Part shown: positions 2,648-51,264 of the stretch, piece by piece
How the letters are laid out: every line of letters begins with the position of its first letter
How positions within the stretch are numbered: the first letter of the stretch is position 1
Assembly (NCBI RefSeq): GCF_024171995.1
Contig: NZ_JAMTCT010000012.1
Location: 62,001 to 126,000 of the forward strand
Reading direction: 5' to 3'
Length of the DNA stretch: 64,000 nt
Source of the DNA: Promicromonospora umidemergens
GTDB lineage: Bacteria; Actinomycetota; Actinomycetes; Actinomycetales; Cellulomonadaceae
Notes under the pieces: generated by a model
The model's database searches: none
Seen by the model: the letters and a program-made list of their open reading frames with translations, nothing else
Told to the model about the DNA's origin: nothing
Program-made: the position numbers and the translations under genes

Positions 2648-3910
2648 GTGCAACCGATCACCCTGTCCCTGGACCAGGCACGCCGGATCGCTGTCGCGGC
2701 GCAGGGCCTGAACCGCCCACGCACCGACGGGCCGCGCACCATGCGGCACGTGCAGGGCGTGATCGACCGGCTGGGCCTGCTCCAGATCGACTCGGTCAAC
2801 GTCCTCGCCCGGGCACACCTGCTGCCCCTGTTCTCACGCCTCGGCCCGTACGACACCGACCTGCTGGACCGGGCCACGGCGTCGGGCAGGTTCGCCCGGC
2901 GAGCGGGCAAGGCGGCCGCCGCCGACCGCCGGCTCGTGGAGAGCTGGGCGCACGTGGCCGCCTACGTGCCGCCGCACGTATGGCCGCTGCTGGCGTTCCG
3001 GCGGCGGTGGTTCGCGCAGGAGTACGACTGGCGTGAGCTGGACGGCGTGCGGCTGCCGGACGCCCCGCAGGTCGCCGAGGTGCGCGACCTGATCGTGGCA
3101 GAGGGGCCGCTGTCGGCCTCGCAGATCCACGACCGGTTCGTCTCCGAGGGGCGCTCGGTGCGCCGCAAGCGGGGCACCTGGTGGGACTGGAGCACCGAGA
3201 AGCGTGTCGTGGAGCACCTGTTCTTCACGGGCGAGGTGGTCTCGGCAGGGCGGAACGCGCAGTTCGAGCGGTTGTACGACCTGCCGGAGCGCGTGCTGCC
3301 GCCGTCGGCCCTCGGGGAGGTGCCGGAGGCCGAGGCCAAGCGCGCTCTGCTGGAGCTGGGCGCCCGGGCCCACGGCATCGGCGTGGCACGCTGCATCAAG
3401 GACTACTACCGGCTCAGGGGGCCCGTGGCGGACCAGGCTCTGGCCGGCCTCGTCGAGGACGGGGTGCTGCTGCCCGTCCGCGTGGCCGGTGGTTCCGAGC
3501 AGTGGCTCCTGCACCGCGACGCCGTCCGCCCGCGGCGGGCCACGGGGCAGGCGCTGCTCGCGCCGTTCGACCCGCTCGTGTGGGAGCGCAAGCGGCTGGA
3601 ACGCCTCTTCGGGATGCGGTACCGGATCGGCATCTACACGCCGGCCGCCCAGCGCGTCGACGGGTACTACGTGCTGCCGTTCCTCGAGGACGCACAGCTC
3701 ACGGCCCGGGTGGATCTCAAGGCGGACCGCGCGGCGGGGATCCTGCGGGTGCGGTCCGCCCACTCCGAGCCGACGCTGACCGAGGACACACCGGCGCGCC
3801 TGGCGGCCGAGCTCGGCGCGATGGCGCGGTGGCTCGGGCTCGAGCGGGTGGCGGTCGAGGCCAGAGGCACGCTTTCACCCGCGCTGCGTGCCGTGACGGG
3901 CAGTCGCTGA
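2648..3910 (+). CDS. YcaQ-type winged-helix DNA glycosylase (HTH_42)
   Basis: A 420-residue protein of the HTH_42 (DUF1006) family. YcaQ-type members are DNA glycosylases that unhook interstrand crosslinks and remove bulky alkyl adducts. Residues 46-48 read Q-I-D, the catalytic pair of the YcaQ-like branch (Q-x-D), as opposed to the Q-x-Q of AlkZ. The conserved region around MRHVQGVIDRLGLLQIDSVN is intact and length is normal. The GTG at 2648 is preferred because the family begins with LSLxQARRIA; its ribosome binding site is weak, with a GGAGGGGA stretch only about 30 nt upstream. It is divergent from comF with a 91-bp gap. Confidence 0.85.
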   Translation: MQPITLSLDQARRIAVAAQGLNRPRTDGPRTMRHVQGVIDRLGLLQIDSVNVLARAHLLPLFSRLGPYDTDLLDRATASGRFARRAGKAAAADRRLVESWAHVAAYVPPHVWPLLAFRRRWFAQEYDWRELDGVRLPDAPQVAEVRDLIVAEGPLSASQIHDRFVSEGRSVRRKRGTWWDWSTEKRVVEHLFFTGEVVSAGRNAQFERLYDLPERVLPPSALGEVPEAEAKRALLELGARAHGIGVARCIKDYYRLRGPVADQALAGLVEDGVLLPVRVAGGSEQWLLHRDAVRPRRATGQALLAPFDPLVWERKRLERLFGMRYRIGIYTPAAQRVDGYYVLPFLEDAQLTARVDLKADRAAGILRVRSAHSEPTLTEDTPARLAAELGAMARWLGLERVAVEARGTLSPALRAVTGSR

Positions 3911-3935
3911 AACATGCGCCGATTAAACTCGGTGC

Positions 3936-5630
3936 ATGGTCACCGCTGCGATCTTCCTGGCCGTCACGGTCGCGGCCGGACTAGGGGCGGTGCTGCTCCG
4001 GCTGCCGCCCCTGGTGGGATTTCTGGTGGCCGGGTTCGCCCTGCACGCGGCAGGGGTCGCTGAGCCGAACTACCTGGAGACGGTCGCCGACCTGGGCGTG
4101 ACGCTGCTGCTGTTCGGCATCGGTCTCAAGCTCGACGTCAAGACGCTGCTCCGCAAGGACGTGTGGCTCACCACCGTGGCCCACCTCCTGGTCAGCGTCG
4201 CGATCGCCATCGGTTTTCTCGGCCTGCTGGGCGTGATCGGGTTCTCGATGCTTGCGGGCGAGGGTCTGGGCGTCCTCGCGCTCCTCGGGCTCGCCCTGTC
4301 GTTCTCCTCGACGGTGTTCGTGGTCAAGGTGCTCGACGGCCGCTCCGACCAGTCCGCGCTCTACGGCCGGATCGCCATCGGCGTCCTGGTCATGCAGGAC
4401 CTGATCGCCGTCGTCTTCCTGTCCGTGTCCTCCGACCATCCGCCGAGCCCGTGGGCGTTCGGCCTCGTGCTGCTGATCCCTGGCGCCTGGGTGCTGCGCA
4501 GGGTGTGGTCGAAGGTGGGCCACGGTGAGCTGCAGGCGCTGTTCGGCGTGGCGGTCGCGCTCGGCCCCGGTTACGCGCTGTTCGACGCCGTCGGTCTCAA
4601 AGGGGATCTCGGCGCGCTCGTCCTCGGCATGCTCCTGGCGGGGCACCCGGCCGCCACGGAGCTGTCGCGCAACCTGTTCACCCTCAAGGAGCTGCTGCTC
4701 GTCGGTTTCTTCGTGTCCATCGGCTTCTCGGGCCAGCTGACCTGGCAGGCAGCGGGGATCGGGCTGCTGATGCTGCTCATGCTGCCGTTCCAGGCCGTCG
4801 CGACGGCGGTCCTGCTGCGTCTGACGCGGCTGCGCAAGCGCACGGCGATCCTCACGGGTCTGGTGCTGACCAACTATTCGGAGTTCGGTCTGATCGTGGT
4901 CGCCGTCGGCGCGCAGGCGGGCATGCTGCACGACGAGTGGCTCGTGGTGCTCGCGGTCGCCGTCGCCGGCAGCTTTGTGCTGTCCTCGGCGGTCAACACC
5001 CGCGGTAACGAGTTCGCGATCCGGCTCGCCAAGCGCTTCCCGTCCAGGCCCAACGAGTGGCTGCACCCGGAAGAGCAGCTCATCGACGTGTCCGGTGCTG
5101 AGGTGCTCGTGCTCGGTATGGGCAGGGTGGGCCGTGGCGCCGTCCGCCAGCTGTGCGACGACTACGGCATGGCCGCCATGGGCGTCGAGCACGACCCGGC
5201 GCGCGTCATCACCCTGCGGAACGAGGGCTTCACCGTGGTGCAGGCCGATGCCACGGACATCGAGTTCTGGGGCCGGGTGCGCAGCGCCGGAGCCGTCAGG
5301 CTGGCGATCCTCGCCATGCCCTTCCACGCGGCGAACCTCATCGCGCTGTCCCAGCTGCGCGCGAGCGGTTTCGACGGCACGGTCGCCGCCGTCGCGCGGT
5401 ACGACGACGACGTGGCCGAGCTCGAGCGGCACGGTGCGGACGCCGTGTTCCACCTGTACGGCACGGCGGGGCTGGCGCTGGCCGACGAGGCGGCCGAGGC
5501 GGCGCTCGGCTACGCCGCCGCCGAGCGGATGCGCGACGCTCAGGCGCGGCGGAACGCACACCGGGACCAGGGGCCCGACCTGTCGCCGGAGTCGGCGGCC
5601 GAGCCGGTCGTCGGCGGAGGCCCGCTCTGA
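3936..5630 (+). CDS. CPA2-family cation/proton exchanger with RCK (TrkA-N) domain
   Basis: A 564-residue membrane protein. Residues 1 to about 365 hold roughly 12 hydrophobic helices of the Na+/H+ exchanger fold. Residues about 390-510 form a Rossmann TrkA-N domain starting VLVLGMGRVGRGAVRQL, which in KefB/KefC/YbaL-type proteins senses nucleotides and gates K+ or Na+ efflux. The short C-terminal tail is low-complexity. It begins 25 nt after the glycosylase gene and ends 7 nt before the convergent mrp operon, so two cation-handling units meet here. The ion and direction of transport cannot be read from sequence. Confidence 0.88.
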   Translation: MVTAAIFLAVTVAAGLGAVLLRLPPLVGFLVAGFALHAAGVAEPNYLETVADLGVTLLLFGIGLKLDVKTLLRKDVWLTTVAHLLVSVAIAIGFLGLLGVIGFSMLAGEGLGVLALLGLALSFSSTVFVVKVLDGRSDQSALYGRIAIGVLVMQDLIAVVFLSVSSDHPPSPWAFGLVLLIPGAWVLRRVWSKVGHGELQALFGVAVALGPGYALFDAVGLKGDLGALVLGMLLAGHPAATELSRNLFTLKELLLVGFFVSIGFSGQLTWQAAGIGLLMLLMLPFQAVATAVLLRLTRLRKRTAILTGLVLTNYSEFGLIVVAVGAQAGMLHDEWLVVLAVAVAGSFVLSSAVNTRGNEFAIRLAKRFPSRPNEWLHPEEQLIDVSGAEVLVLGMGRVGRGAVRQLCDDYGMAAMGVEHDPARVITLRNEGFTVVQADATDIEFWGRVRSAGAVRLAILAMPFHAANLIALSQLRASGFDGTVAAVARYDDDVAELERHGADAVFHLYGTAGLALADEAAEAALGYAAAERMRDAQARRNAHRDQGPDLSPESAAEPVVGGGPL

Positions 5631-41530: not shown

Positions 41531-42793
41531 ATGACTGATTCCGGTGCTCTCGTGGTGCGTGGCCGCCTGGTCCAGCCGACCCGGGTGGTGGACGACGGCG
41601 TCGTCGTCACCTCCGGCGGTCGCGTCACCTTCGCGGGTTCGCTGCCCGACGCCGTCGCGGCCGGTCACGGCCCTCTCGTCGAGTCAGTGCCGACGGCGCC
41701 CGAGACGTACGTGCTGCCCGGGCTCGTCGACCTGCACAACCACGGCGGGGGTGGCGTCTCGTTCCCGGACGTGACCTCGTCCGCCGCCGCGCTGGCGGGT
41801 GTGCTGGAGCACCGCCGCCACGGCACCACGACCATGCTCGCGTCGCTGGTGACGGCCCGGCCGGAGGTGCTGCTGCAGCGGGCGGCGGTACTGGCCGAGC
41901 TGGCCGTGGCCGGCGAGATCGAGGGGCTGCACGCGGAGGGGCCGTTCCTCTCGCACCGCCGCAGGGGCGCGCACAACCCGGCTGACCTGCAAGAAGGCAG
42001 CGTCGACCTGGTCAGGGACCTCGCGAAGGCAGCCCGCGGCTTTCTGCGCACCATGACCATCGCGCCCGAGGTGCCCGGCGTGATGGGTGCCGGGGGAGCC
42101 GCTGAGGCGCTGGTCGACGCCGGCGTGCTGCCCTCCCTCGGCCACACCGACGGCAGCACCGAGCAGGCCGAGGCGCTGATCGCGCAGGTCACCCAGGCTC
42201 TGGCCGCCCAGGGCGGCACGCTCGGGCCGATGACCGCCACGCACCTGTTCAACGGGATGCGGCCGCTGCACCACCGCGAGCCAGGCCCCATCGCAGCGTG
42301 CCTCGCCGCGGCGGCCCGTGGGGACATGGTCGTCGAGCTCATCGGCGACGGCGTGCACCTCGACGCGGCCATGGTCCGCTCGGTGTTCGACATGGTGGGG
42401 GCGGACCAGGTGGTGCTGGTGACCGACGCGATGGCGGCGGCCGGCATGGCCGACGGGCACTACGAGCTGGGACCCATGTCGGTGGAGGTGCTCGAGGGCG
42501 TCGCGCGGGTCATCACGGAGGGTTTGACCTCGGAGGCCGCGGGGGGAGAAGGGCCGATCGCGGGCGGCACCGCCCACCTGGTCGACGTCGTGCGCTGCGC
42601 TGTCACCGGAGGCGTACCTCTGGTCGACGCCGTCCGGGCGGCCACCGTGGTGCCGGCCCGGGTCCTGGGGCTGACGGGCGAGGTCGGCAGCCTGGAGCCG
42701 GGCGCCCGCGCCGACGTCCTGGTCACCGACGCGGACCTGCGCCCGGTTCGGGTGCTGCGCCACGGTGTTGACGTCGACCTTGCCGGGGCGTAG
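41531..42793 (+). CDS. nagA: N-acetylglucosamine-6-phosphate deacetylase
   Basis: A 420-residue amidohydrolase that deacetylates GlcNAc-6-P in amino-sugar catabolism and wall recycling. Metal and substrate motifs are visible in order: DLHNHGGGG, HAEGPFLS, SLGHTDG, HLFNGM and the catalytic aspartate in LVTDAM. Length is normal. It stands alone: no nagB is adjacent. The ATG has AGGA 10 nt upstream. Confidence 0.94.
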   Translation: MTDSGALVVRGRLVQPTRVVDDGVVVTSGGRVTFAGSLPDAVAAGHGPLVESVPTAPETYVLPGLVDLHNHGGGGVSFPDVTSSAAALAGVLEHRRHGTTTMLASLVTARPEVLLQRAAVLAELAVAGEIEGLHAEGPFLSHRRRGAHNPADLQEGSVDLVRDLAKAARGFLRTMTIAPEVPGVMGAGGAAEALVDAGVLPSLGHTDGSTEQAEALIAQVTQALAAQGGTLGPMTATHLFNGMRPLHHREPGPIAACLAAAARGDMVVELIGDGVHLDAAMVRSVFDMVGADQVVLVTDAMAAAGMADGHYELGPMSVEVLEGVARVITEGLTSEAAGGEGPIAGGTAHLVDVVRCAVTGGVPLVDAVRAATVVPARVLGLTGEVGSLEPGARADVLVTDADLRPVRVLRHGVDVDLAGA

Positions 42794-42832
42794 CCGATCG
42801 AAGATTCCATCAGCCCGACCAGCTCTCCACCA

Positions 42833-43228
42833 TCAGCCGCGGGCTGCTCCTTGGGGCCATACGACGTCGACCGGCACACCTGCGTCACGCGCCAGCGTGA
42901 CGGTGTCGGCTGTGCCGCCCTTGCCGTTGGACGGTGCACCGTCCCACACGGCCACGAGCCGGTCGGCCCGGGCGATGAGTACTTCGTTCGCTGCCTGGTA
43001 AGCGTCACGGCCGGCGGTCGGGTGCTCCAGCACCAGAACTTCGGTCGCGGCGGTGGCGAGCCGGTCGAACAGAGCGGCGTGGTCCGGCTTGACCTTGACC
43101 TGCCGGTAGTCCTGCGACGGGATCACCGCCACAAGGCGTCCGCCCGCCGCGAGTACCGCCTCTGCGAACACACTGTCGGCTCCGCGCGCGAGGCACGTTG
43201 GTGGTGAAACACGGGCCCGTTCGGCCAA
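42833..43228 (-). pseudogene. SLOG-type nucleotide-binding protein, N-terminus missing
   Basis: A 131-residue frame from a TTG. From about residue 12 it matches a SLOG/Rossmann family I recall in actinobacteria (CLARGADSVFAEAVLAAGG, VKPDHAALFDRL, LVAVWDGAPSNGKGGTADTV). Relatives start about 40-45 residues earlier with a glycine-rich nucleotide-binding strand (of the type IAITGH); those residues are absent. Only 33 nt separate it from the preceding phosphatase gene, so they cannot be encoded nearby. It is probably a deletion remnant. It is the last gene of a minus-strand set with the phosphatase and HTH/PRTase genes. Confidence 0.55.
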
Positions 43229-43261
43229 GTCGTGACGTCGACCGAGGGCGGTTGGGCGCTC

Positions 43262-44188
43262 CTAGAAGTGTATGGCGCTGCGTATCTCTTCGGCGAGTGC
43301 ATGGTTGCCTGCGGCGATGAACTTCCGTCGCTGGCCCATCGTCGTGTTGATCTCAGCCAGGGTGTTGAGACCGTGGTCGAGTGCGATGGGGTTGCCGTCC
43401 AGGTCGATGGTGACGCCTCCGGCAGCGTGCAGGATGTAGTGCCCGGGCGACAGGTCCCACACGGCGAAGCCCTTGGCGATCTCCATGGTCGCGTCGGTGA
43501 ACCCGGCAGCGACGTGGCACAGGCTGATGGACCCGAAGTCGACACCGATCCGCCCCTTCGCTCTCCCGTCCTCACCGGGTCCGCTGAGCAGGTCGAAGAA
43601 GCGTTCTTGCTGTGCCAGGGGCCTGAACCGTTCGGCGGGCCGCATGAGGTAGTTGGTGACCAGCGCCTGGGAGAGGTGAGCGTTCGACGGCGATTCCAGG
43701 GCGCGCCGGTCCCCGTCCGCCGTGATCAGGAACGCTCGGTCCGAACCGTCGTCGTGCACCGCGAGGTAGAGCTGGACGTGGTGGAAGATGTCGCCGACGA
43801 TCGCGATGACGGGCCGCCTCATCGATCGCGAGTAGACCATGAGGTGGGTGTAGCCGTGCAGGGCCCGTACCGCTAGTTCACTGGTGTCCAGGGGGTCGAC
43901 CAGGACGCAGAGGTCGGGGTCGGGATCGTCGCCGATGATCTGCGGGTCGTCCTCCTCGGAGGCGTAGATGAAGGACGGGATGACTTCGGCGAGGAGCTCC
44001 TGGTAACGGTGGTGCATCCATAGGTCGTAGTCGGACAGGAAGTTGTCCTCGTGGCGCAGGTTCTCGTTCTCTGCACGACGACCAGTGAGCGCGGCCTGCA
44101 CGAGGCGTGGCCGGATCTCCTCCATCGTGGCCTTGACCAGATCGGCGATGGTTTCCGCCAGCTTCGGGATCGGGGGCTCGCTGCTCAT
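43262..44188 (-). CDS. Inositol monophosphatase family protein
   Basis: A 308-residue metal-dependent phosphatase of the IMPase/FBPase/CysQ superfamily. Metal ligands are E78/E79 in SEEDD, the DPLDTSE motif at 98-104 (normally DPxDGT) and W244-D245 with AAGG at 255-258. The Thr-Ser in place of Gly-Thr and the HHVQLYLAVHDDG segment set it apart from housekeeping IMPases. The substrate is unknown; inositol phosphate, sugar phosphate or a nucleotide such as PAP are options. The ATG at 44188 has GGAG 9 nt upstream. It follows the HTH/PRTase gene by 19 nt, so co-expression is likely. Confidence 0.8.
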   Translation of the reverse strand: MSSEPPIPKLAETIADLVKATMEEIRPRLVQAALTGRRAENENLRHEDNFLSDYDLWMHHRYQELLAEVIPSFIYASEEDDPQIIGDDPDPDLCVLVDPLDTSELAVRALHGYTHLMVYSRSMRRPVIAIVGDIFHHVQLYLAVHDDGSDRAFLITADGDRRALESPSNAHLSQALVTNYLMRPAERFRPLAQQERFFDLLSGPGEDGRAKGRIGVDFGSISLCHVAAGFTDATMEIAKGFAVWDLSPGHYILHAAGGVTIDLDGNPIALDHGLNTLAEINTTMGQRRKFIAAGNHALAEEIRSAIHF

Positions 44189-44207
44189 GCAGGGTGTCTC
44201 CAGTCGG

Positions 44208-45248
44208 CTATCGCAACTCAAGCGGGGGCTCAATGCCCGGCGGGCTCATGGTGGCGGCAATGAACACGGCCTCGAAGTCCGCGGCGCGCATGATCTTCGC
44301 ACCGGTCAGATCGTCGAAGCTGTCGACCGCCAGTTCTCGGTCCTTGGTCATCGCACCGAACACGGCGAAGTACAGCTCGGCTCTGGGGTACCTCGCGCGC
44401 ACCTGTCGTGCGATATAGCCGATCACATCGGCGTGCTTGACCTCAAAGTCGCAGATCACGATGGTGGGAGCGTCTCTGGCGTCGGGGAAGAAGGACGCCT
44501 CGTCGAGCTCGACGCCGTCGCTCACCTTGTTGCAGCGCAGGTACCCGATAGGGCATCGGGCGAACCGGGTCGAGGCGAGGAATGTTGCCATCACCAGCCC
44601 GGCCTCGTTGATCCCGAAACAGATGTCAGCGTCGAGGCGCTTGCCGAGATTCTTGATCTGATGCGACAGGCTCTGAACGCCGTGGCCGAACGTCTCCCAC
44701 GTCAGATCGAGCAATCGCCCCGGCTGAGGATTAGGCAGGCTGAACACCTGGATATCAGGATTGCCGTACTCGACGGTGGGCACCGTCAAGATGAACTCCT
44801 GACCGGTCTGACCCTGCCACTCCCTCGCCGGGCGAACACTGTTGTGTGCTGCGCCAGGTATCGGGGCTGATGCGTCGCCTCTGATCGCTTGCTTGTCGGT
44901 GGCGAACTGCTTGAGAGCGAGTTGGTCCTCGGCCGTAAGGCGTTCGTAGGCTTCGGCGATCAGTTCTGTGGGATTGATGCTCTCCTCGGCCACGCCCAAG
45001 GGACCTTTGCCATAGGCAGCACACAGGATGAGCAGGCTCGACATCGAGGGCGGTGAGCCCTGTCCTCGGCCGCGGGCCCACGTCTCCCAGGCGTTGATGG
45101 TCGTGCCGCCCAGGCTGGTCTGATTTCCGGTGACGTCGTTATAGCGCCCGGCTGCCTGGTCTTGTGACAAGCCGGCCGCATACCGGTGTGCCTGCAAGCT
45201 CGGTACGTCTGGGTACCGGGCCATCAGCTCGACTGCGGCGTCCTTCAC
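44208..45248 (-). CDS. HTH domain fused to a phosphoribosyltransferase-like domain
   Basis: A 346-residue protein. Residues about 15-85 look like an XRE-type helix-turn-helix (AHRYAAGLSQDQAAGRYND, then TTINAWETWARG). Residues about 207-300 resemble a type I PRTase core: DADICFGINEAGLVMATFLA followed by APTIVICDFEVKHADVIGYI at the position of the PRPP loop. That loop lacks the normal DDxxTTG, so PRPP catalysis is doubtful and a ligand-sensing role is more likely. The GTG at 45248 lies 42 bp from the IS1380 insertion, which has cut off any native promoter further upstream. GC content looks lower than in the core genes. Confidence 0.65.
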   Translation of the reverse strand: MKDAAVELMARYPDVPSLQAHRYAAGLSQDQAAGRYNDVTGNQTSLGGTTINAWETWARGRGQGSPPSMSSLLILCAAYGKGPLGVAEESINPTELIAEAYERLTAEDQLALKQFATDKQAIRGDASAPIPGAAHNSVRPAREWQGQTGQEFILTVPTVEYGNPDIQVFSLPNPQPGRLLDLTWETFGHGVQSLSHQIKNLGKRLDADICFGINEAGLVMATFLASTRFARCPIGYLRCNKVSDGVELDEASFFPDARDAPTIVICDFEVKHADVIGYIARQVRARYPRAELYFAVFGAMTKDRELAVDSFDDLTGAKIMRAADFEAVFIAATMSPPGIEPPLELR

Positions 45249-45286
45249 GGACCTCAGCTCGGTCCACAGTTTCTTCCCTTGCGCGG

Positions 45287-45290
45287 CTAG
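45287..45290 (+). repeat. IS target site duplication, left copy (CTAG)
   Basis: CTAG directly abuts the left inverted repeat and is repeated at the right end (46986-46989). IS1380-family elements make 4-bp duplications. Confidence 0.85.
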
Positions 45291-46985
45291 CCTCGGGCTT
45301 TCATCGGTGAGGTGTCCGCGGGCTGGCTGATGAGAGCGAAAGGTGCCACTGAGCTGGGATAATACGGCTTGTCGAAGGTCGTATCAGTCCAGAATCAGGA
45401 GCACCTTTCAGGTGAGGAAGCCTACCGGGTTCTACCCGCGCCCCAGAGTCGATGTCCGCAACGTGGGAGCGGTCGGGAACGCGGGCGGGGTGCTGGTCAC
45501 CGACACCGTCCGCGCAGTCGGTCTCGACGCCGTGCTGACCCGGGAGCTGGGGCCGTGGCGCAAACCGCTGGCGGTGCATGATCCGGGCAAGGTCCTGCTC
45601 GACCTCGCGATCATGCTCGTGCTGGGCGGCGACGCCTGCGCGGACATCGCGTTGCTGCGGTCCGAGCCAGGCATCTTCGGTCGGGTCGCATCCGATGCGA
45701 CGGTCTCGCGCACGATCACGGCGCTGGCTGCTGATGCCGACAGGTCGCTGGCCGCGATCGACCGGGCCCGGGCGGCAGCTCGCGCCCGGGCGTGGGCCCT
45801 GGCCGAGACACACGCCCCGGACCACGACACCGGGGCGAGGAACCCGTTGGTGATCGATCTGGACGCCACCCTGGTGACCGCGCACTCCGACAAGGAGCAG
45901 GCCGCGCCGACGTTCAAGCGCGGGTTCGGGTTCCATCCCTTGTGCGCGTTCGTCGACCATGGTGCCGACGGGACCGGGGAACCGCTGGTGATCCGGCTGC
46001 GACCCGGCAACGCCGGGTCGAACACCGCGGCCGACCACATCGCCGTGGTCAAACAGGCGCTCAGTCAGCTGCCCGGCCATGTTCCCGGCCGCCGGGCCGG
46101 GAAGAAGGTCCTGGTCCGCACCGACGGCGCCGGCGGGACGCACGACTTCATCGCGTGGCTGGCCAGGCGGGGTCTGTCCTACAGCGTGGGGTTCACGCTC
46201 CCGGAGAACACCCCGGACCTGCTCGCCCAGATCCCGCAGGACGTGTGGACCGAGGCCTACGACGCCCACGACCAGGTCCGCGACGGCGCCTGGGTCGCCG
46301 AGCTGACCGGACTCATGGACCTGACCGGGTGGCCGCCCGGGATGCGCGTCATCGTCCGCAAGGAACGGCCTCACCCCGGGGCGCAGCTGCGGTTCGAGGA
46401 CGTCGACGGCATGCGGATCACCGCGTTCGCGACCAACACCGCCCCGGGCGGCGCGGGCACCCAGCTCGCCGCGCTCGAGCTGCGGCACCGCCGTCGGGCA
46501 CGCTGCGAGGACCGGATCCGCTGCGCGAAGGACACCGGGCTGACCAATCTGCCCCTGGCCTCGTTCGACGCCAACCGGATCTGGTGCGCCATCGTCGCGC
46601 TGGCCGGCGACCTCACCGCCTGGATGCAGACCCTCGCCCTGACCGACGAGCCGGCCCGCCGGTGGGAACCCAAACGCCTGCGGCTGCGCCTGTTCACGAC
46701 CCCGGCGGTCCTGGCCCGCCGCGCCCGCGGCCTCGTGCTGCACCTGGCCGACCACGCGCCCTGGGCCGGCCTCGCCGCCGACGGCATCCATCGGCTGCGG
46801 ACCCTCGGACCCGCACCTGGCTGACCCCGGCCAGACCGTCCCGACGACCCCGCACATCCGGACCAGTGGAACCCGGCGACCGGCCGACGCCGGCCGCGTT
46901 GTCACACCCACCTGCAAGAATCACGCCCCAACGACGGCACCGACGCCGCCCCAGCCACGCTCACCCGAGCGATGAAAGATCCGGG
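45291..46985 (+). mobile_element. Complete IS1380-family insertion sequence
   Basis: 1695 bp bounded by imperfect inverted repeats: left CCTCGGGCTTTCATCG (45291-45306) and right, read inwards, CCCGGATCTTTCATCG (46985-46970), with similarity continuing about 8 more bases. It is flanked by CTAG on both sides and carries one intact transposase. The perfect duplication and intact ORF indicate recent insertion. It separates two divergent gene groups. Confidence 0.9.
45412..46824 (+). CDS. IS1380-family transposase
   Basis: A 470-residue DDE transposase. The first acidic region is VIDLDATLVTAHSDKE, the second VRTDGAGGTHDFI, and the third is in the C-terminal half around RCEDRIRCAKDTGLTNLP. These match the IS1380 (DDE_Tnp_1-like) family in order. 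The GTG at 45412 follows AGGAG by about 10 nt; the frame is open further upstream to the IS end without a better start. Confidence 0.92.
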   Translation: MRKPTGFYPRPRVDVRNVGAVGNAGGVLVTDTVRAVGLDAVLTRELGPWRKPLAVHDPGKVLLDLAIMLVLGGDACADIALLRSEPGIFGRVASDATVSRTITALAADADRSLAAIDRARAAARARAWALAETHAPDHDTGARNPLVIDLDATLVTAHSDKEQAAPTFKRGFGFHPLCAFVDHGADGTGEPLVIRLRPGNAGSNTAADHIAVVKQALSQLPGHVPGRRAGKKVLVRTDGAGGTHDFIAWLARRGLSYSVGFTLPENTPDLLAQIPQDVWTEAYDAHDQVRDGAWVAELTGLMDLTGWPPGMRVIVRKERPHPGAQLRFEDVDGMRITAFATNTAPGGAGTQLAALELRHRRRARCEDRIRCAKDTGLTNLPLASFDANRIWCAIVALAGDLTAWMQTLALTDEPARRWEPKRLRLRLFTTPAVLARRARGLVLHLADHAPWAGLAADGIHRLRTLGPAPG

Positions 46986-46989
46986 CTAG
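46986..46989 (+). repeat. IS target site duplication, right copy (CTAG)
   Basis: CTAG directly follows the right inverted repeat and matches the left copy. Confidence 0.85.
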
Positions 46990-47269
46990 TTCTCTGCCTC
47001 GCGCCTGAGGAGTGATTCCTATGCGTTGATTGGTGCGTGAGCGCGGCGGTGCAGACGGCTTTCTCACGGCAGGTAGCCCTTCCACACCCGAACCTTAGCC
47101 ATCCTGGACCCTTTTGCCCATTGCAATGGGCAAGGTTTGCGGGCGAAGGCAGCACCACCGGTCAAGACACCCAAAAATCCGTTCGCCGTTGGCCTGCCGA
47201 ACAGGCGTCTGCACTCCCGATCGGATGCGACCTTGGTCGAGCTTCTCACCACCGACCCAAGGAACCGCC
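46990..47269. other. Former divergent promoter region, right of the IS
   Basis: Before the insertion this 280-bp stretch joined the 42 bp left of the IS as the gap between the HTH/PRTase gene and the HAD gene group. It is visibly more AT-rich than its neighbours. On the minus strand TAGGAA near 47011-47016 could be the original -10 of the HTH/PRTase operon. CCCATTGCAATGGG (47113-47126) is a perfect 14-bp palindrome and a good operator candidate. No convincing gene. Confidence 0.45.
47113..47126. promoter_or_regulatory. 14-bp palindrome, candidate operator
   Basis: CCCATTGCAATGGG is perfectly symmetric and lies 144 bp before the small coupled ORF. The HTH/PRTase protein encoded across the IS is an obvious candidate binder, by inference only. 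Confidence 0.45.
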
Positions 47270-47413
47270 GTGATAACTACGACCAGCGCGAAGGATGTCA
47301 GCTATGGCAGTGGAGCCATGGCGAAGCGGGATGCCACGGCTGACCGCCGCCAGGACTGCGGCGGTAGCCGGTTTGCGTTCGCCGGGCGCCAGCCTGTGGG
47401 AGCAGTCCGATGA
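47270..47413 (+). CDS. Small ORF coupled to the HAD phosphatase gene
   Basis: A 47-residue peptide from a GTG with AAGGAA about 8 nt upstream. Its TGA overlaps the HAD ATG as ATGA, the arrangement of translational coupling. The sequence is basic with one cysteine (RRQDCGGSRFAFAG) and matches nothing I recognise. It could be a leader peptide, a real small protein or chance. Confidence 0.4.
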   Translation: MITTTSAKDVSYGSGAMAKRDATADRRQDCGGSRFAFAGRQPVGAVR

Positions 47414-48279
47414 CCGCGACCGAGCCGAGCACGCAGATCGTGCGGCGACTGGTGGCGCTCGACATCGACGGAACTCTCCTCGTGACAGGCCAGGACCCGA
47501 CCCCTGCCGTTCTTGCTGGGATCCGGGCCGCCTCGTGTGTCGGGCACGAACTTGTGCTCGCCACGGGACGTTCTCTGTCCGGAGCGCTGTACGCAGCACG
47601 TCTCCTCGGAATCACAGACGGCTGGATCGTCGCCTCGAACGGAAGCGTCGTCGTCCGGCTGAACAGGGGTGCGTACGACCTCGTCGGGATACACACGGTT
47701 GATGCGAAGGCCGTCGTGCAGCTCGTGTCCGTCGTCCGCCCCGACCTTCGGATAGCGGCCGAGATCGTCGGCGTGGGTTACCACGTCTCGCAGCCGTTCC
47801 CTCCGCAGGAACTCGGCGGCGAACAGGTCGAGGCAACCCGACTCGACGACCTGTGGGCGGAGGCAACCCCGCGCCTGGCCATCTACGGCGCGGGCGCGCA
47901 GAACCTCGTCCCGTCGATTCGGGCGGGCGGGATGACCGCCACGCGGACCCGCCCGGACTGGGTCGACGTGACGCCCGGAGGGGTGAGCAAGGCGACCGCT
48001 CTGGAGACGATCCGCCGCGATCTCGGCATCCCGAAGAGCCGCACGGTCGCCGTCGGGGACAGCGAGAACGACATCTCGATGCTGACCTGGGCCGAGCGAG
48101 GTATCGCGATGGGTAACGCGTCTGCGCTGGTCCGGTTCTCCGCGAACTACGCGACCAAGGACGTCGAGGACGACGGTGCGGCTCTGATCCTGCATGCGCT
48201 TGCTCAGCCCGATCGTGAGGACCTCACGGGCGAGACCCGGGCGGGCGCAGTGACCGCCACCACCGTCCAGGCCCACTGA
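47410..48279 (+). CDS. HAD-IIB (Cof-type) phosphatase
   Basis: A 289-residue hydrolase. The nucleophile and acid/base are D18 and D20 in LDIDGTLL; motif II is ATGRS; motif III/IV is VAVGDSENDISML. A C2B cap lies between, as in sugar-phosphate and phosphomannomutase-like HADs. Substrate unknown. It starts a plus-strand group with the fused kinase gene and an acetyltransferase, and lies opposite the HTH/PRTase-phosphatase operon. Confidence 0.88.
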   Translation: MTATEPSTQIVRRLVALDIDGTLLVTGQDPTPAVLAGIRAASCVGHELVLATGRSLSGALYAARLLGITDGWIVASNGSVVVRLNRGAYDLVGIHTVDAKAVVQLVSVVRPDLRIAAEIVGVGYHVSQPFPPQELGGEQVEATRLDDLWAEATPRLAIYGAGAQNLVPSIRAGGMTATRTRPDWVDVTPGGVSKATALETIRRDLGIPKSRTVAVGDSENDISMLTWAERGIAMGNASALVRFSANYATKDVEDDGAALILHALAQPDREDLTGETRAGAVTATTVQAH

Positions 48280-48378
48280 ACTTGCGGCTGGACGGTGCCC
48301 AGCACCGCCGCCCGGCCGCAAGCCCGCTCCTGGCGGGCGTACGTGCAGGCACCACCCCGCACAACGAGGAGGAAGCAC

Positions 48379-49755
48379 ATGACCACCACCATCGCACGCG
48401 GCCTGCGAGAGGGCAGGGAGCTTGTCGACCCCGAGCTGTTCCACCGGCTCGTCCAGCGAGTCGCGGAGGAGCACGACCACGACCTGATCATGGCCGGTCG
48501 GATCGTGGACCAGGCCCTCGCGTTCCTCGGAACCACTGCCACACACGAGGGGCGCCCGCTCTCGGCGTCCGAGATCGTGGACCCGGGCTGGCACGAGTTC
48601 ATCCTGCACACGGTCGACTACGCCGAGTTCTGCGACCGGGTCGCCGGCCGCTTCCTGCACCACGTGCCCACCGACCCCGACGACGAGTCGGCCGAGGGCG
48701 TCCACGACACGCTCAGCTACACCGTGGACGCCATCGACGCCGCAGGGTTCTATGTCGACACCGAGCTGTGGCCGACCGCGCACGCGGGCAAGTGCTCGCA
48801 GTGCCACGCGGGCTGCAACCAGCTCGCCCGCCTGATCGACAGGGAGACACACATGAACCGCCGATCCTGGGACGAGCTGCCCGCCGACGTCCGCAACGCC
48901 ATCGAGGCGCGATGCGGGGCGATCCTACGCACGGAGACCCCGTCCGCCGGCCGGAACTCCGCCCTGTCCGCGTTGCTGCACACGGCGAACGGGAGCGTGT
49001 TCGTCAAAGGCATCCCGACCGACGTACGGCTGTTCAGAGCCCACCGGCACGAGATCCGCGTCAACACCTGGTTACGGCACCGCGTCTCCGGTGTCCCGTG
49101 CCTGCTGTGGACGATCGAGGTCGGGGGCTGGCTGCTCGCCGGGTACGAGCCCGTACCCGGCGAGCACGCCGACTTCTCACCCGGCTCGCCCGACATACCA
49201 ACCGTGGTCGACGCCATCTCGCGCCTGGCTGAGGAACTGACGCCGAGCCCCGCACCCGACGTGGCCCCGCTCCGCCGCAAGTACACGCGGCTGGCCGGGT
49301 GGCAGTGGCTCGCAGACAACCACGCGGACCAGCTCGACGCGTGGGAGAAGCAGCACCTCGACCTGCTGGTCAACCTCGACGACGAGGCACCGAACGCCCT
49401 GGCCGGGGACAGCCTCGTCCACGCCGACATCCACGAGCTGAACCTGCTTGTGGACAACGGCACGGTGAGCGTCATCGACTGGGCGTGGTCGCGGACCGGC
49501 CCGCCCTGGATCGATGCCGCGCTGCTCACCATCCGGCTGATCGCCGAAGGACACGACCCAGCCGACGCCGAACAACTCGTCTCGGGCACCTGGGGCATCC
49601 AGCACGCCAGCGCGACGGCGGATGCCCTCACCACGTTCGCCGCGACCACCTACGGCCAGTGGAGGCGGTTCTCCATCGAATTCCCCAGCCCGCACCGCGA
49701 GGCCCCGACCCGTGGCGCGCAACTCTGGACCCATCGCCGACTTCGTGCCATGTGA
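48379..49755 (+). CDS. Fusion of GRDP-like domain and APH-type kinase
   Basis: 458 residues. Residues 15-146 resemble the bacterial glycine-rich-domain-protein-like family (DPGWHEFILHTVDYAEFCDR, HHVPTD) and end in a Cys cluster C139, C142, C146 (KCSQCHAGC). Residues about 160-440 are an aminoglycoside-phosphotransferase-fold kinase with the catalytic H348-x-D350...N355 in VHADIHELN and the metal aspartate D367 in VIDWAW. I recall these two modules as separate genes in streptomycetes. An internal ATG (48853) with GGGAG 6 nt upstream falls exactly at the domain border, so the kinase may also be made alone. The main ATG has GAGGAGGAAG upstream. Substrate unknown. Confidence 0.75.
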   Translation: MTTTIARGLREGRELVDPELFHRLVQRVAEEHDHDLIMAGRIVDQALAFLGTTATHEGRPLSASEIVDPGWHEFILHTVDYAEFCDRVAGRFLHHVPTDPDDESAEGVHDTLSYTVDAIDAAGFYVDTELWPTAHAGKCSQCHAGCNQLARLIDRETHMNRRSWDELPADVRNAIEARCGAILRTETPSAGRNSALSALLHTANGSVFVKGIPTDVRLFRAHRHEIRVNTWLRHRVSGVPCLLWTIEVGGWLLAGYEPVPGEHADFSPGSPDIPTVVDAISRLAEELTPSPAPDVAPLRRKYTRLAGWQWLADNHADQLDAWEKQHLDLLVNLDDEAPNALAGDSLVHADIHELNLLVDNGTVSVIDWAWSRTGPPWIDAALLTIRLIAEGHDPADAEQLVSGTWGIQHASATADALTTFAATTYGQWRRFSIEFPSPHREAPTRGAQLWTHRRLRAM

Positions 49756-49770
49756 GGTCAGAATTCCCGT

Positions 49771-50619
49771 GTGTGCGGCTCGGGCTCGGAACTACGCTCC
49801 CCGGATGGATCAAGCTCGACCGCATACCGCGGCCACACTGACGACGACCTGCGGGCGCTGGGCGTGGTCCCGGGTGACGTGCTGCTGGTGCACTCGTCCG
49901 TGCAGAGCCTTGGCTTCGTAGCGGGCGGCGTGCAGGCCGTTGTCGAAGCGTTGCTGTCGGCCGTGGGCCCTGAGGGCACCCTCGTGGTCCCGACCCACAC
50001 GTCGGAGAACACCGACCCGGCAGGCTGGCAGGATCCGCCCGTCCCCGAGCAGTGGTGGCCGGTGATCCGGTCCGAGACGCCCGGATTCGACCCCGCACGT
50101 ACGCCCAGCCGCTGGGTCGGCGTCCTGTCTGAAGTCGTCCGAACCTGGCCGGGCGCCCTACGCAGCGGGCACCCGCAGGTGTCCTGCGCCGCGCTCGGCG
50201 CCCGCGCCCGGGAGGTGACCGTGGAGCACGACCTCGCCGAGTCGCACGGGGAGAGGTCTCCGATCGGTGCGGTCTACCGGCTCGGCGGCCGGGTCCTGCT
50301 CCTCGGCTGCGGTCACGACTCCAATACGTCCCTGCACCTAGCCGAGCGCCGTCAGGCGGCACCCCCGATGGGTGAGACAGGCGCGGCGATCAGCGACGCC
50401 GACGGGACGAGTCGCTGGGTGACCTGGACGGACCTCATGACTGGCGAGGAGGACTTCGACCGGCTCGGCGCCGCGTTCGAGGAGACCGGCGCGGTCACCC
50501 TCGGGCAGGTGGGGTCCGCCGCTGCCCGGCTCATGGACCAGCGGTCGCTCGTGGACTTCGCGGTGGACTGGATGTCGCGTAACCGGTGTGAGGTCGACGT
50601 CGATGCCGCCGGTTCGTAG
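49771..50619 (+). CDS. AAC(3)-family N-acetyltransferase
   Basis: A 282-residue protein of the antibiotic N3-acetyltransferase family, which acetylates the 3-amino group of 2-deoxystreptamine aminoglycosides. Visible motifs are DVLLVHSSVQSLGFVAGG, RSGHPQVSCAALG and ERSPIGAVYRLGGRVLLLGC with the catalytic region HDSNTSLHLAE. The GTG at 49771 gives an odd first 20 residues. A family-like N-terminus (MDQARPHTAATLT) is readable in another frame from the ATG at 49805, suggesting a one-base shift near 49840. The gene may therefore be slightly damaged, or start downstream. Confidence 0.82.
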   Translation: MCGSGSELRSPDGSSSTAYRGHTDDDLRALGVVPGDVLLVHSSVQSLGFVAGGVQAVVEALLSAVGPEGTLVVPTHTSENTDPAGWQDPPVPEQWWPVIRSETPGFDPARTPSRWVGVLSEVVRTWPGALRSGHPQVSCAALGARAREVTVEHDLAESHGERSPIGAVYRLGGRVLLLGCGHDSNTSLHLAERRQAAPPMGETGAAISDADGTSRWVTWTDLMTGEEDFDRLGAAFEETGAVTLGQVGSAAARLMDQRSLVDFAVDWMSRNRCEVDVDAAGS

Positions 50620-50643
50620 CGCACCGCTGTTAGCGTGCCGAGC

Positions 50644-51264
50644 ATGACGTCTCCCGTGTTCCAGCCCGGCCAGACCGTAGTGCGTCGCGAGATCATGCGC
50701 GGCGAGCCGTGGATCGCCGTCCCGCAGGTCTGTGTCCAGGATGACGGCGACCTGCTCGTCACCTACACCCCTGGCGGCACGACGCTGGCATACCCGCAGG
50801 CCGGCGCGTTCCCCGTGGGGGAGCACCCCTGGAAGGCCGCTGGTGGCACCCGCTGGCGCGGGCACGGTCGGCTCGAGCTCCACTGGGCCGGGGTGGAGCA
50901 TTCGCTCTTCCTGTTCTGGGCCGGTCCCGAGCGCGCCTTCCAGGGCTGGTACTTCAACCTCGAGGACGCGCCCCGCCGCACCGCCATCGGGTTCGACACG
51001 CTCGACCACGAGCTGGACGTGTGGTGGGCCGCCGACGCCGAGACGTACGAGTTCAAGGACGTCGTCGAGTTCGAGGAGACCGGGCCGGCGCGCTACCCCG
51101 GCCGCATGGAGCAGATCCGCGCCGAGGGCGACCGGATCGCCGGCCTGCTCGACGCCGGCGAGCTCTGGTGGGACAAGGCCTGGGCCGACTGGACGCCCGA
51201 CGCGTCGTGGCAGCCCCGCGAGATCCCCGCCGACTGGGCGAGCCTGCCGTTCGAGACGCGCTGA
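50644..51264 (+). CDS. DUF402 domain protein
   Basis: A 206-residue protein of the DUF402/FomD-like family, with the signature WYFNLEDAPRRTAIGFDTLD followed by a conserved acidic run DVVEFEETG. Characterised relatives are nucleoside phosphate/diphosphate hydrolases or bind nucleotides at these acids; function here is unknown. The ATG at 50644 gives the family-like start. It follows AAC(3) by 24 nt on the same strand. Confidence 0.82.
   Translation: MTSPVFQPGQTVVRREIMRGEPWIAVPQVCVQDDGDLLVTYTPGGTTLAYPQAGAFPVGEHPWKAAGGTRWRGHGRLELHWAGVEHSLFLFWAGPERAFQGWYFNLEDAPRRTAIGFDTLDHELDVWWAADAETYEFKDVVEFEETGPARYPGRMEQIRAEGDRIAGLLDAGELWWDKAWADWTPDASWQPREIPADWASLPFETR

Follow-up and report, generated by a model that had tools for sequence, protein, structure and literature searches.

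Within a 64,000-nucleotide stretch of the genome of the soil actinobacterium Promicromonospora umidemergens (NCBI RefSeq assembly GCF_024171995.1, contig NZ_JAMTCT010000012.1, positions 62,001 to 126,000; the whole stretch is referred to as the window, and its first letter is position 1), the segment from 42833 to 50619 carries two adjacent genes, one encoding a protein with a helix-turn-helix (HTH) and a phosphoribosyltransferase (PRTase)-like domain, here called the HTH-PRTase, and the other a phosphatase of the inositol monophosphatase (IMPase) family. The HTH-PRTase is very probably a sensor-regulator, and the two genes together probably form a portable regulatory switch, in which a cluster-situated regulator detects a phosphorylated ligand through its PRTase-like domain and the IMPase adjusts this ligand. 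An earlier reading of the same segment, made from its letters alone (the sequence-only reading), had also proposed the HTH-PRTase as a sensor, within a system of several neighbouring genes that would make, sense and degrade a nucleotide- or aminocyclitol-like phosphate; the sensor role and the link to the IMPase are supported, and the larger system is not.

Related loci were collected by scanning GTDB genomes with the HTH-PRTase, which yielded 49 loci in 18 named genera and two metagenome-assembled genomes of no named genus; adding the second copy that the window's own genome carries on contig C47 gives a set of 50 loci. Neighbouring genes were counted by tblastn (E ≤ 1e-5) in flanks of up to 10 kb, shorter at contig ends and of 1.5 kb for the second copy. 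In all 50 loci the PRTase gene is followed on its own strand by the IMPase gene, including two partial or decayed loci (L064 and L065) and one, L056, where the pair is split by an inserted element, whose genes on the related contig L086 look to be of the IS21 type. The gap between the two genes is at most 23 nt in 43 of the 45 loci measured, and an extra adjacent pair was found in the plasmid collection, in Nonomuraea gerenzanensis. The C47 pair is uninterrupted, its PRTase protein is 87% identical to that of the window, and dN/dS between the two copies is about 0.10 for the PRTase and 0.13 for the IMPase. Since the IMPase gene follows the PRTase gene in every locus and dN/dS between the copies is low, a chance collection of genes is disfavoured.

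The pair is rare and patchy, widely but thinly spread. Within a sample of 396 genomes of the phylum, no genome but the window's own had the PRTase gene, and a sample of 200 genomes of the family added one congener (G087) with a remnant and two further weak matches (E 7e-4 and 8e-4); 5 or 10 candidates were scored per genome in both samples. The IMPase subfamily had no match in 393 other genomes of the class (E ≤ 1e-20, at most five candidates scored per genome), and in our samples it was met only in the company of the HTH-PRTase. No description of the pair was found in the open-access literature, as judged by titles and abstract starts among the matches listed.

The conservation analyses of the two proteins used alignments drawn from 45 called loci, from which five loci with broken frames or partial matches (L056, L057, L060, L064 and L065) had been omitted; each alignment comprised the window protein and 31 (A1), 24 (A2) or 42 (A5) of the called loci. 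The PRTase assignment, already made in the sequence-only reading, finds no real support in Pfam (1 of 32 members, E 0.17) and strong support in the predicted fold. When modelled alone with AlphaFold, the PRTase domain reached a pLDDT of 91 and a pTM of 0.89, and a Foldseek search with this domain retrieved 174 PDB chains at E ≤ 0.001, and among the best 50 matches listed 48 carry PRTase or PyrR names and two are unnamed, one of these having a structure with bound ppGpp. The fold is thus shared with PyrR and the type I PRTases (XGPRT, HPRT), with best TM-scores of 0.60 (by query) and 0.71 (by target) among these best 50 matches and a sequence identity of 8-17% in the corresponding alignments, whereas the HTH-PRTase lacks their catalytic phosphoribosyl pyrophosphate (PRPP) motif. 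This motif, scored as [DE]D, two or three residues, [ST]G, any residue and [ST], occurs in 0 of 43 proteins, and CDxEVK stands in the place of the canonical PRPP loop in 43/43. The C-terminus PGIEPPLELR is nearly invariant (42/43). The regulator has no sequence match in the PDB, and no Pfam or NCBIfam family covers its main domain.

At the other end of the protein, HTH_31 was matched in 14 of 32 members at E ≤ 0.5 (best 0.00015), the match being sub-threshold in the window protein, and an N-terminal SPQARGRE motif is conserved in homologues with the usual HTH. In three loci (L059, L061 and L063) another N-terminal domain (YRAFCREYD...PSKAQFYRWLSG) precedes the PRTase domain, and both PRTase and IMPase are retained. 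Because the N-terminal domain is exchanged in these loci while the PRTase domain is kept, the comparison favours a receptor role for the fixed part of the protein.

The closest precedent is PurR of Bacillus, for which PMC8789054 describes a PRTase-fold site that serves only regulation, by PRPP and ppGpp; the likeness is that a transcription factor has taken over a PRTase fold as its effector pocket. As in PurR, a DNA-binding domain is predicted to be fused to the PRTase fold, and a conserved palindrome in the right place would serve as the specific operator. The PRPP loop, which PurR-like proteins keep as effector site, is not retained here, and the pair differs from PurR further in its XRE-like HTH, in the co-encoded IMPase and in having one operator-like site per genome where this was examined.

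The putative operator is a palindrome with the consensus TTGCCCATYNNRATGGGYAA, which can be written TTGCCCAT-N4-ATGGGYAA, located upstream of the regulator gene. With up to three mismatches it is present in 43/50 loci, or 43/45 when the three loci with an alternative HTH and two decayed loci are set aside. Across these 43 sites, the half-site letters CCCA and TGGG show a single departure, at position 15, and the palindrome starts 32-93 bp upstream of the inferred start codon in the 31 of 43 loci measured; the same 950,396 bases contain four other matches. A variant of the pattern with a 3-nt spacer proved wrong; the half-sites are 4 nt apart. Whole-genome counts were made at up to one mismatch for 12 of the 50 loci, chosen by hand, in genomes of 5-12 Mb. 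Exactly one site per genome was found in 12/12, with coordinates that agree with the PRTase locus each time, and a reversed control pattern matched once in a single genome and nowhere in the other 11. The window's genome has two perfect sites, one for each PRTase copy, and one elsewhere with two mismatches, a setting at which the reversed control gives five sites. The palindrome appears to be tied to the usual HTH, because it is absent from 3/3 loci with the different N-terminal domain.

Membership of the phosphatase in the IMPase superfamily, which includes SuhB and FBPase/IMPase, rests on the shared family profile (Pfam Inositol_P, 59 bits against a cut-off of 27) and on metal-ligand motifs. 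The residues E, DPxD and WD act as metal ligands in IMPases, and all of them are present in 25/25 proteins, within the conserved motifs SEE, DPLDTSE and WDLxPG (also 25/25). SuhB, which PDB names designate as a Nus factor, is a case of an IMPase acting in transcription, and is cited here as an analogy only.

The locus of the window is organized in two divergent arms on either side of an insertion sequence (IS), with the following features:

45248-44208, minus strand: HTH-PRTase regulator gene, 346 aa from GTG 45248, 5'-truncated by IS1380
46986-47020 (end approximate), minus strand: N-terminal codons of the HTH-PRTase gene, around SPQARGRE, which the IS separates from the rest of the gene, placed by visual alignment to the uninterrupted copy L013 and by the conserved SPQARGRE motif
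44188 (ATG) to 43262, minus strand: IMPase-family phosphatase gene, Pfam Inositol_P E 7e-16
43228-42833, minus strand: SLOG-like gene fragment of 131 aa, sub-cut-off matches to DprA-type models
47114-47133, no strand: operator-like palindrome TTGCCCATTGCAATGGGCAA, a perfect copy
45291-46985, plus strand: IS1380-family element of 1695 bp with transposase reading frame 45343-46824, assigned by NF033539, inverted ends and a CTAG duplication
47134-47413, plus strand: degenerate small-ORF region, whose second-copy counterpart is a protein of about 120 aa
47410-48279, plus strand: HAD-IIB (Cof-type) hydrolase
about 48367-49755, plus strand: fusion of a GRDP-like N-terminal domain (label of the sequence-only reading) and an APH-type kinase domain
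49771-50619, plus strand: AAC(3)-like acetyltransferase, Pfam Antibiotic_NAT E 5e-89
42794-49770 (limits approximate), no strand: strain-specific island between NagA (41531-42793) and the AAC(3) and DUF402 genes

The genes of both arms are present as the sequence-only reading had described them, including the gaps of 19 nt from the HTH-PRTase stop to the IMPase gene and 33 nt from the IMPase gene to the SLOG-like open reading frame (ORF), and its "SLOG-type remnant" is a fair description of a fragment whose matches to DprA-type models (E 0.006 and 0.025) both fall below the cut-off. What it had missed in presenting six genes as one locus is the IS1380 element between the arms, the resulting truncation of the HTH-PRTase frame, and the position of AAC(3) outside the unit. 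The GRDP-like domain is matched by no Pfam or NCBIfam model, and the AAC(3)-like protein, a member of the Pfam family, misses the curated cut-off for AAC(3) (NCBIfam AAC_3, 191 bits against 270). The small ORF as called (47114-47413) starts inside the operator palindrome and matches the small protein of the second copy weakly (33% over 48 aa, E 0.007).

The insertion is assigned to the IS1380 family by its transposase, which scores 327 bits with NF033539 (cut-off 180), by imperfect inverted ends (13-14 of 18) and by a 4-bp CTAG target duplication at 45287-45290 and 46986-46989. It sits within the 5' end of the HTH-PRTase coding sequence, between the SPQARGRE and AAQGKKLW codons as compared by eye with the second copy, and its right end lies 129 bp short of the palindrome. 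The remaining frame of 346 aa begins at GTG 45248, the sole in-frame start left after a stop inside the IS, against about 371-391 aa (inferred starts) in homologues with the usual HTH. Because IS1380 falls within its N-terminal codons, the window regulator is predicted to be short by roughly 30-45 residues and is separated from its putative operator, with the frame of the HTH core and PRTase domain still open; the gene is probably off or yields a shortened protein. As the plus arm retains the candidate operator, it may answer in trans to the second regulator on C47, whose palindrome has an identical core, or it may have been freed from control. On contig C47 (genome G000, L114), transposase-like genes at 45-1297, presumably of the IS3 type, directly border the second copy's HAD gene.

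The island was delimited by comparing the region between NagA and the DUF402 gene across 12 other genomes of the genus. The two genes are directly adjacent in 11 of them, and in the remaining one (G087, L116) an AAC(3) gene, 86% identical, lies between them; no match to the PRTase, IMPase, HAD or kinase was found between NagA and DUF402 in any of the 12. The limits of about 42794-49770 follow from this junction, which in the congeners holds no pair, HAD or kinase. A further AAC(3) gene, 87% identical, is located in G048 (L106) beyond a GNAT gene, with no pair beside it. Because AAC(3) occurs in these two congeners without the pair at its side, it is a member of the flexible gene pool of the genus and not of the pair.

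Oppositely oriented genes precede the regulator in 41/45 loci, according to a home-made GC-frame gene caller that is rough and made some wrong calls. The families of these divergent arms were tallied after manual thinning of the 149 called arm proteins to 117, and compared with 117 of 289 distal genes drawn at random as a control, for which 25 of 94 families are listed, including all with at least two members. The arms contained seven Radical_SAM and four Methyltransf_19 proteins, three each of PCMT, DHQ_synthase, ROK and NUDIX, and one lantibiotic dehydratase match; Radical_SAM, Methyltransf_19, PCMT, DHQ_synthase and ROK each occurred at most once among the control proteins. The arms of the related loci look biosynthetic rather than defensive. 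A radical-SAM-like gene was seen upstream in nine loci (L022, L025, L031, L036, L046, L049, L051, L052 and L055) by the CxxxCxxC motif, a looser definition than the Pfam count, and L022 has two such genes more than 5 kb away. In four Actinoplanes loci (L046, L049, L051 and L052) the arm combines a radical-SAM enzyme, a peptide ending in GCG[DN]DNPYN and an APH kinase. Three Nocardia loci (L021, L024 and L029) have a sugar-phosphate cyclase, a ROK kinase and a lactonase, as in cyclitol pathways, with dehydrogenase-like genes also in L021 and L029, and an aminocyclitol link is possible for this subset only. The arms of L043 and L058 carry a lantibiotic-dehydratase-like gene.

Similar peptides were also observed away from the pair. 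The Streptomyces plasmid L122 has a radical-SAM gene, a peptide (3212-3379) and an APH gene beside DUF5753/DUF397 genes, and the Streptomyces plasmid L117 has a radical-SAM gene, a peptide (3927-4055) and a GRDP-like protein, neither showing the pair in the stretch shown. Short peptides ending in GCG[DNE]DNP[YF], encoded beside a radical-SAM gene and close to a kinase or GRDP-like gene, are common to the four Actinoplanes arms, L117 and L122, and possibly represent a family of ribosomally synthesized and post-translationally modified peptides; three of them gave no NCBIfam match, and the motif was sought in the literature by string only. In L049, at about 17.6 kb on the minus strand, a second reading frame ending in GNERGCGDDNPYN lies about 9.5 kb from the first peptide and is perhaps another precursor. 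The kinase of the window is a fusion of the two parts that elsewhere accompany such peptides. DUF5753/DUF397-type regulators, as on L122, likewise stand beside a unit of radical SAM, peptide and kinase; they differ from the HTH-PRTase in their sensor domain, and the pair described here adds a phosphatase.

Taken together, we propose that a dimer of the HTH-PRTase would bind the single palindrome and control both its own operon and the divergent arm. With the PRPP loop gone and another conserved motif in its place, the PRTase-like domain would no longer make nucleotides and would instead bind a small, probably phosphorylated, ligand that alters DNA binding, much as in PurR, and the co-encoded IMPase may remove a phosphate from this ligand or its precursor, thereby resetting or creating the signal. 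The divergent arm differs by genus, ranging over radical-SAM enzymes with a peptide and a kinase, lanthipeptide-type enzymes, a sugar-phosphate cyclase pathway, transporters and methyltransferases, and consists in this strain of the HAD hydrolase and the kinase fusion; in the window copy, IS1380 has separated the regulator gene from its putative operator and its initial codons. As a guess, repression relieved by the ligand is slightly favoured over activation, because the palindrome is near the regulator's own start. If this switch is real, the regulator-phosphatase pair, defined here for at least 18 named genera of actinobacteria and predicted to have a single DNA target, would offer a direct route to finding and switching on the adjacent clusters, and would add a further case of a PRTase fold turned receptor, here with a phosphatase partner. 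More tentatively, and with the balance against it, the loci might form a new class of self-contained signalling cassettes in which a PRTase fold free of PRPP chemistry is the receptor for a phosphorylated signal set by a dedicated IMPase, a single operator in each genome turns an exchangeable biosynthetic arm on or off, and the PGIEPPLELR C-terminus may dock the IMPase, making the phosphatase part of the switch itself. Such cassettes would provide a means of activating the silent peptide clusters of rare actinobacteria.

Several observations weigh against the switch. The full-length HTH-PRTase was modelled with modest confidence (pTM 0.42), and its HTH scores fall below the Pfam cut-off in both proteins for which scores are shown. 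Loci L031 and L035 (2/45) lack the palindrome at three mismatches. The IMPase activity is not certain, because DPLDTSE replaces the usual DPxDG[ST] (0/25 canonical). The divergences of PRTase and IMPase correlate moderately for the PRTase domain (r 0.55 for all 24 loci and 0.72 once the three with an alternative HTH are removed), and with r 0.26 for whole PRTase proteins. Many arms have no recognisable theme, and NUDIX is as common in the arms as in the control (3 and 3). The radical-SAM enzymes of the four Actinoplanes arms are 88-97% identical and the three cyclase arms come from one Nocardia group, so the arm signal is partly one lineage counted repeatedly. In the window itself, the plus arm showed no homologue of the radical-SAM genes of other arms, and neither the window nor its genome contains a peptide motif of the GCG-DNP type. 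Finally, the kinase fusion is not tied to the pair, as in Nonomuraea gerenzanensis its best relative shares a record with the PRTase gene at a distance of about 8.6 Mb.

Another way to account for a strictly linked pair is that both proteins are enzymes acting serially on a sugar phosphate, with the HTH only tuning their own expression and the neighbours unrelated. The intact ligand motifs of the IMPase (25/25), the strict pairing despite differing arms and the sugar-phosphate genes of some arms would all suit such a pathway; we nevertheless consider it unlikely, given that the PRPP loop is missing from 43/43 proteins, that the exchange of the N-terminal domain in three loci with the PRTase domain kept resembles a sensor placed on a different output domain, and that the one operator-like site per genome stands beside the regulator. 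An anti-phage or conflict module on mobile elements, towards which the SLOG argument of the sequence-only reading points, is highly improbable. It would draw on the strain-specific nature of the island, on one pair copy on an IMG/VR contig (L086, listed as viral, with an upstream gene that we take to encode a DnaB-like helicase) and on three copies whose neighbouring genes presumably resemble those of integrative elements, but PADLOC returned one weak match among six proteins (the SLOG fragment to ShosA, E 0.036), the PRTase had no match in 50,697 phage records, and the arms are richer in biosynthetic families than the control. SLOG proteins do occur in nucleotide-based conflict systems, and a SLOG-like fragment adjoins the pair in the window, but it was matched in 0/50 related loci; the defence reading was set aside as having little support.

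The gene-neighbourhood analysis that the sequence-only reading had suggested as its own check bears directly on its proposal of a single aminocyclitol or nucleotide phosphate system. Run on the 50 loci, it confirmed the IMPase as a constant partner and showed that the other members are not conserved neighbours: a HAD gene is found in 1/50 loci, an APH-kinase or GRDP-like gene in 5/50 and AAC(3) in 0/50. The single HAD neighbour belongs to the second copy of the same genome, where a counterpart 46% identical to the window HAD, one of 21 HAD matches genome-wide, is divergent from the pair; this recurrence in both copies, and the separate occurrence of GRDP-like and APH domains in a few other arms, are what speaks for the six-gene view. 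Two arm proteins match the Pfam HAD model, one of them possibly unrelated to the window's HAD, and L064 contains an additional 42-aa kinase fragment when another kinase is used as query. In view of these counts, of the AAC(3) genes lacking the pair in two congeners and of the comparison across 12 genomes of the genus, the six-gene system is scarcely tenable and was rejected.

A separate question is whether the window copy, as opposed to the family, has become a decaying remnant without present function, which would be compatible with the regulatory switch proposed for the family. We regard this as a substantial possibility that still falls short of an even chance. The IS1380 element in the regulator gene, the SLOG fragment, the degenerate small ORF and the existence of another decayed copy in the congener G087 point towards decay, whereas the PRTase and IMPase frames remain open and the low dN/dS against the second copy indicates constraint, though perhaps mostly from the time before the insertion.

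The decayed copy in G087 is a PRTase-IMPase remnant of Promicromonospora panici, located on contig C15 (L115, identical to L065). At the right border of the window locus, positions 50635-51264 hold the FomD-like DUF402 gene, which scores below the NCBIfam FomD cut-off and is matched in 13/13 genomes of the genus.

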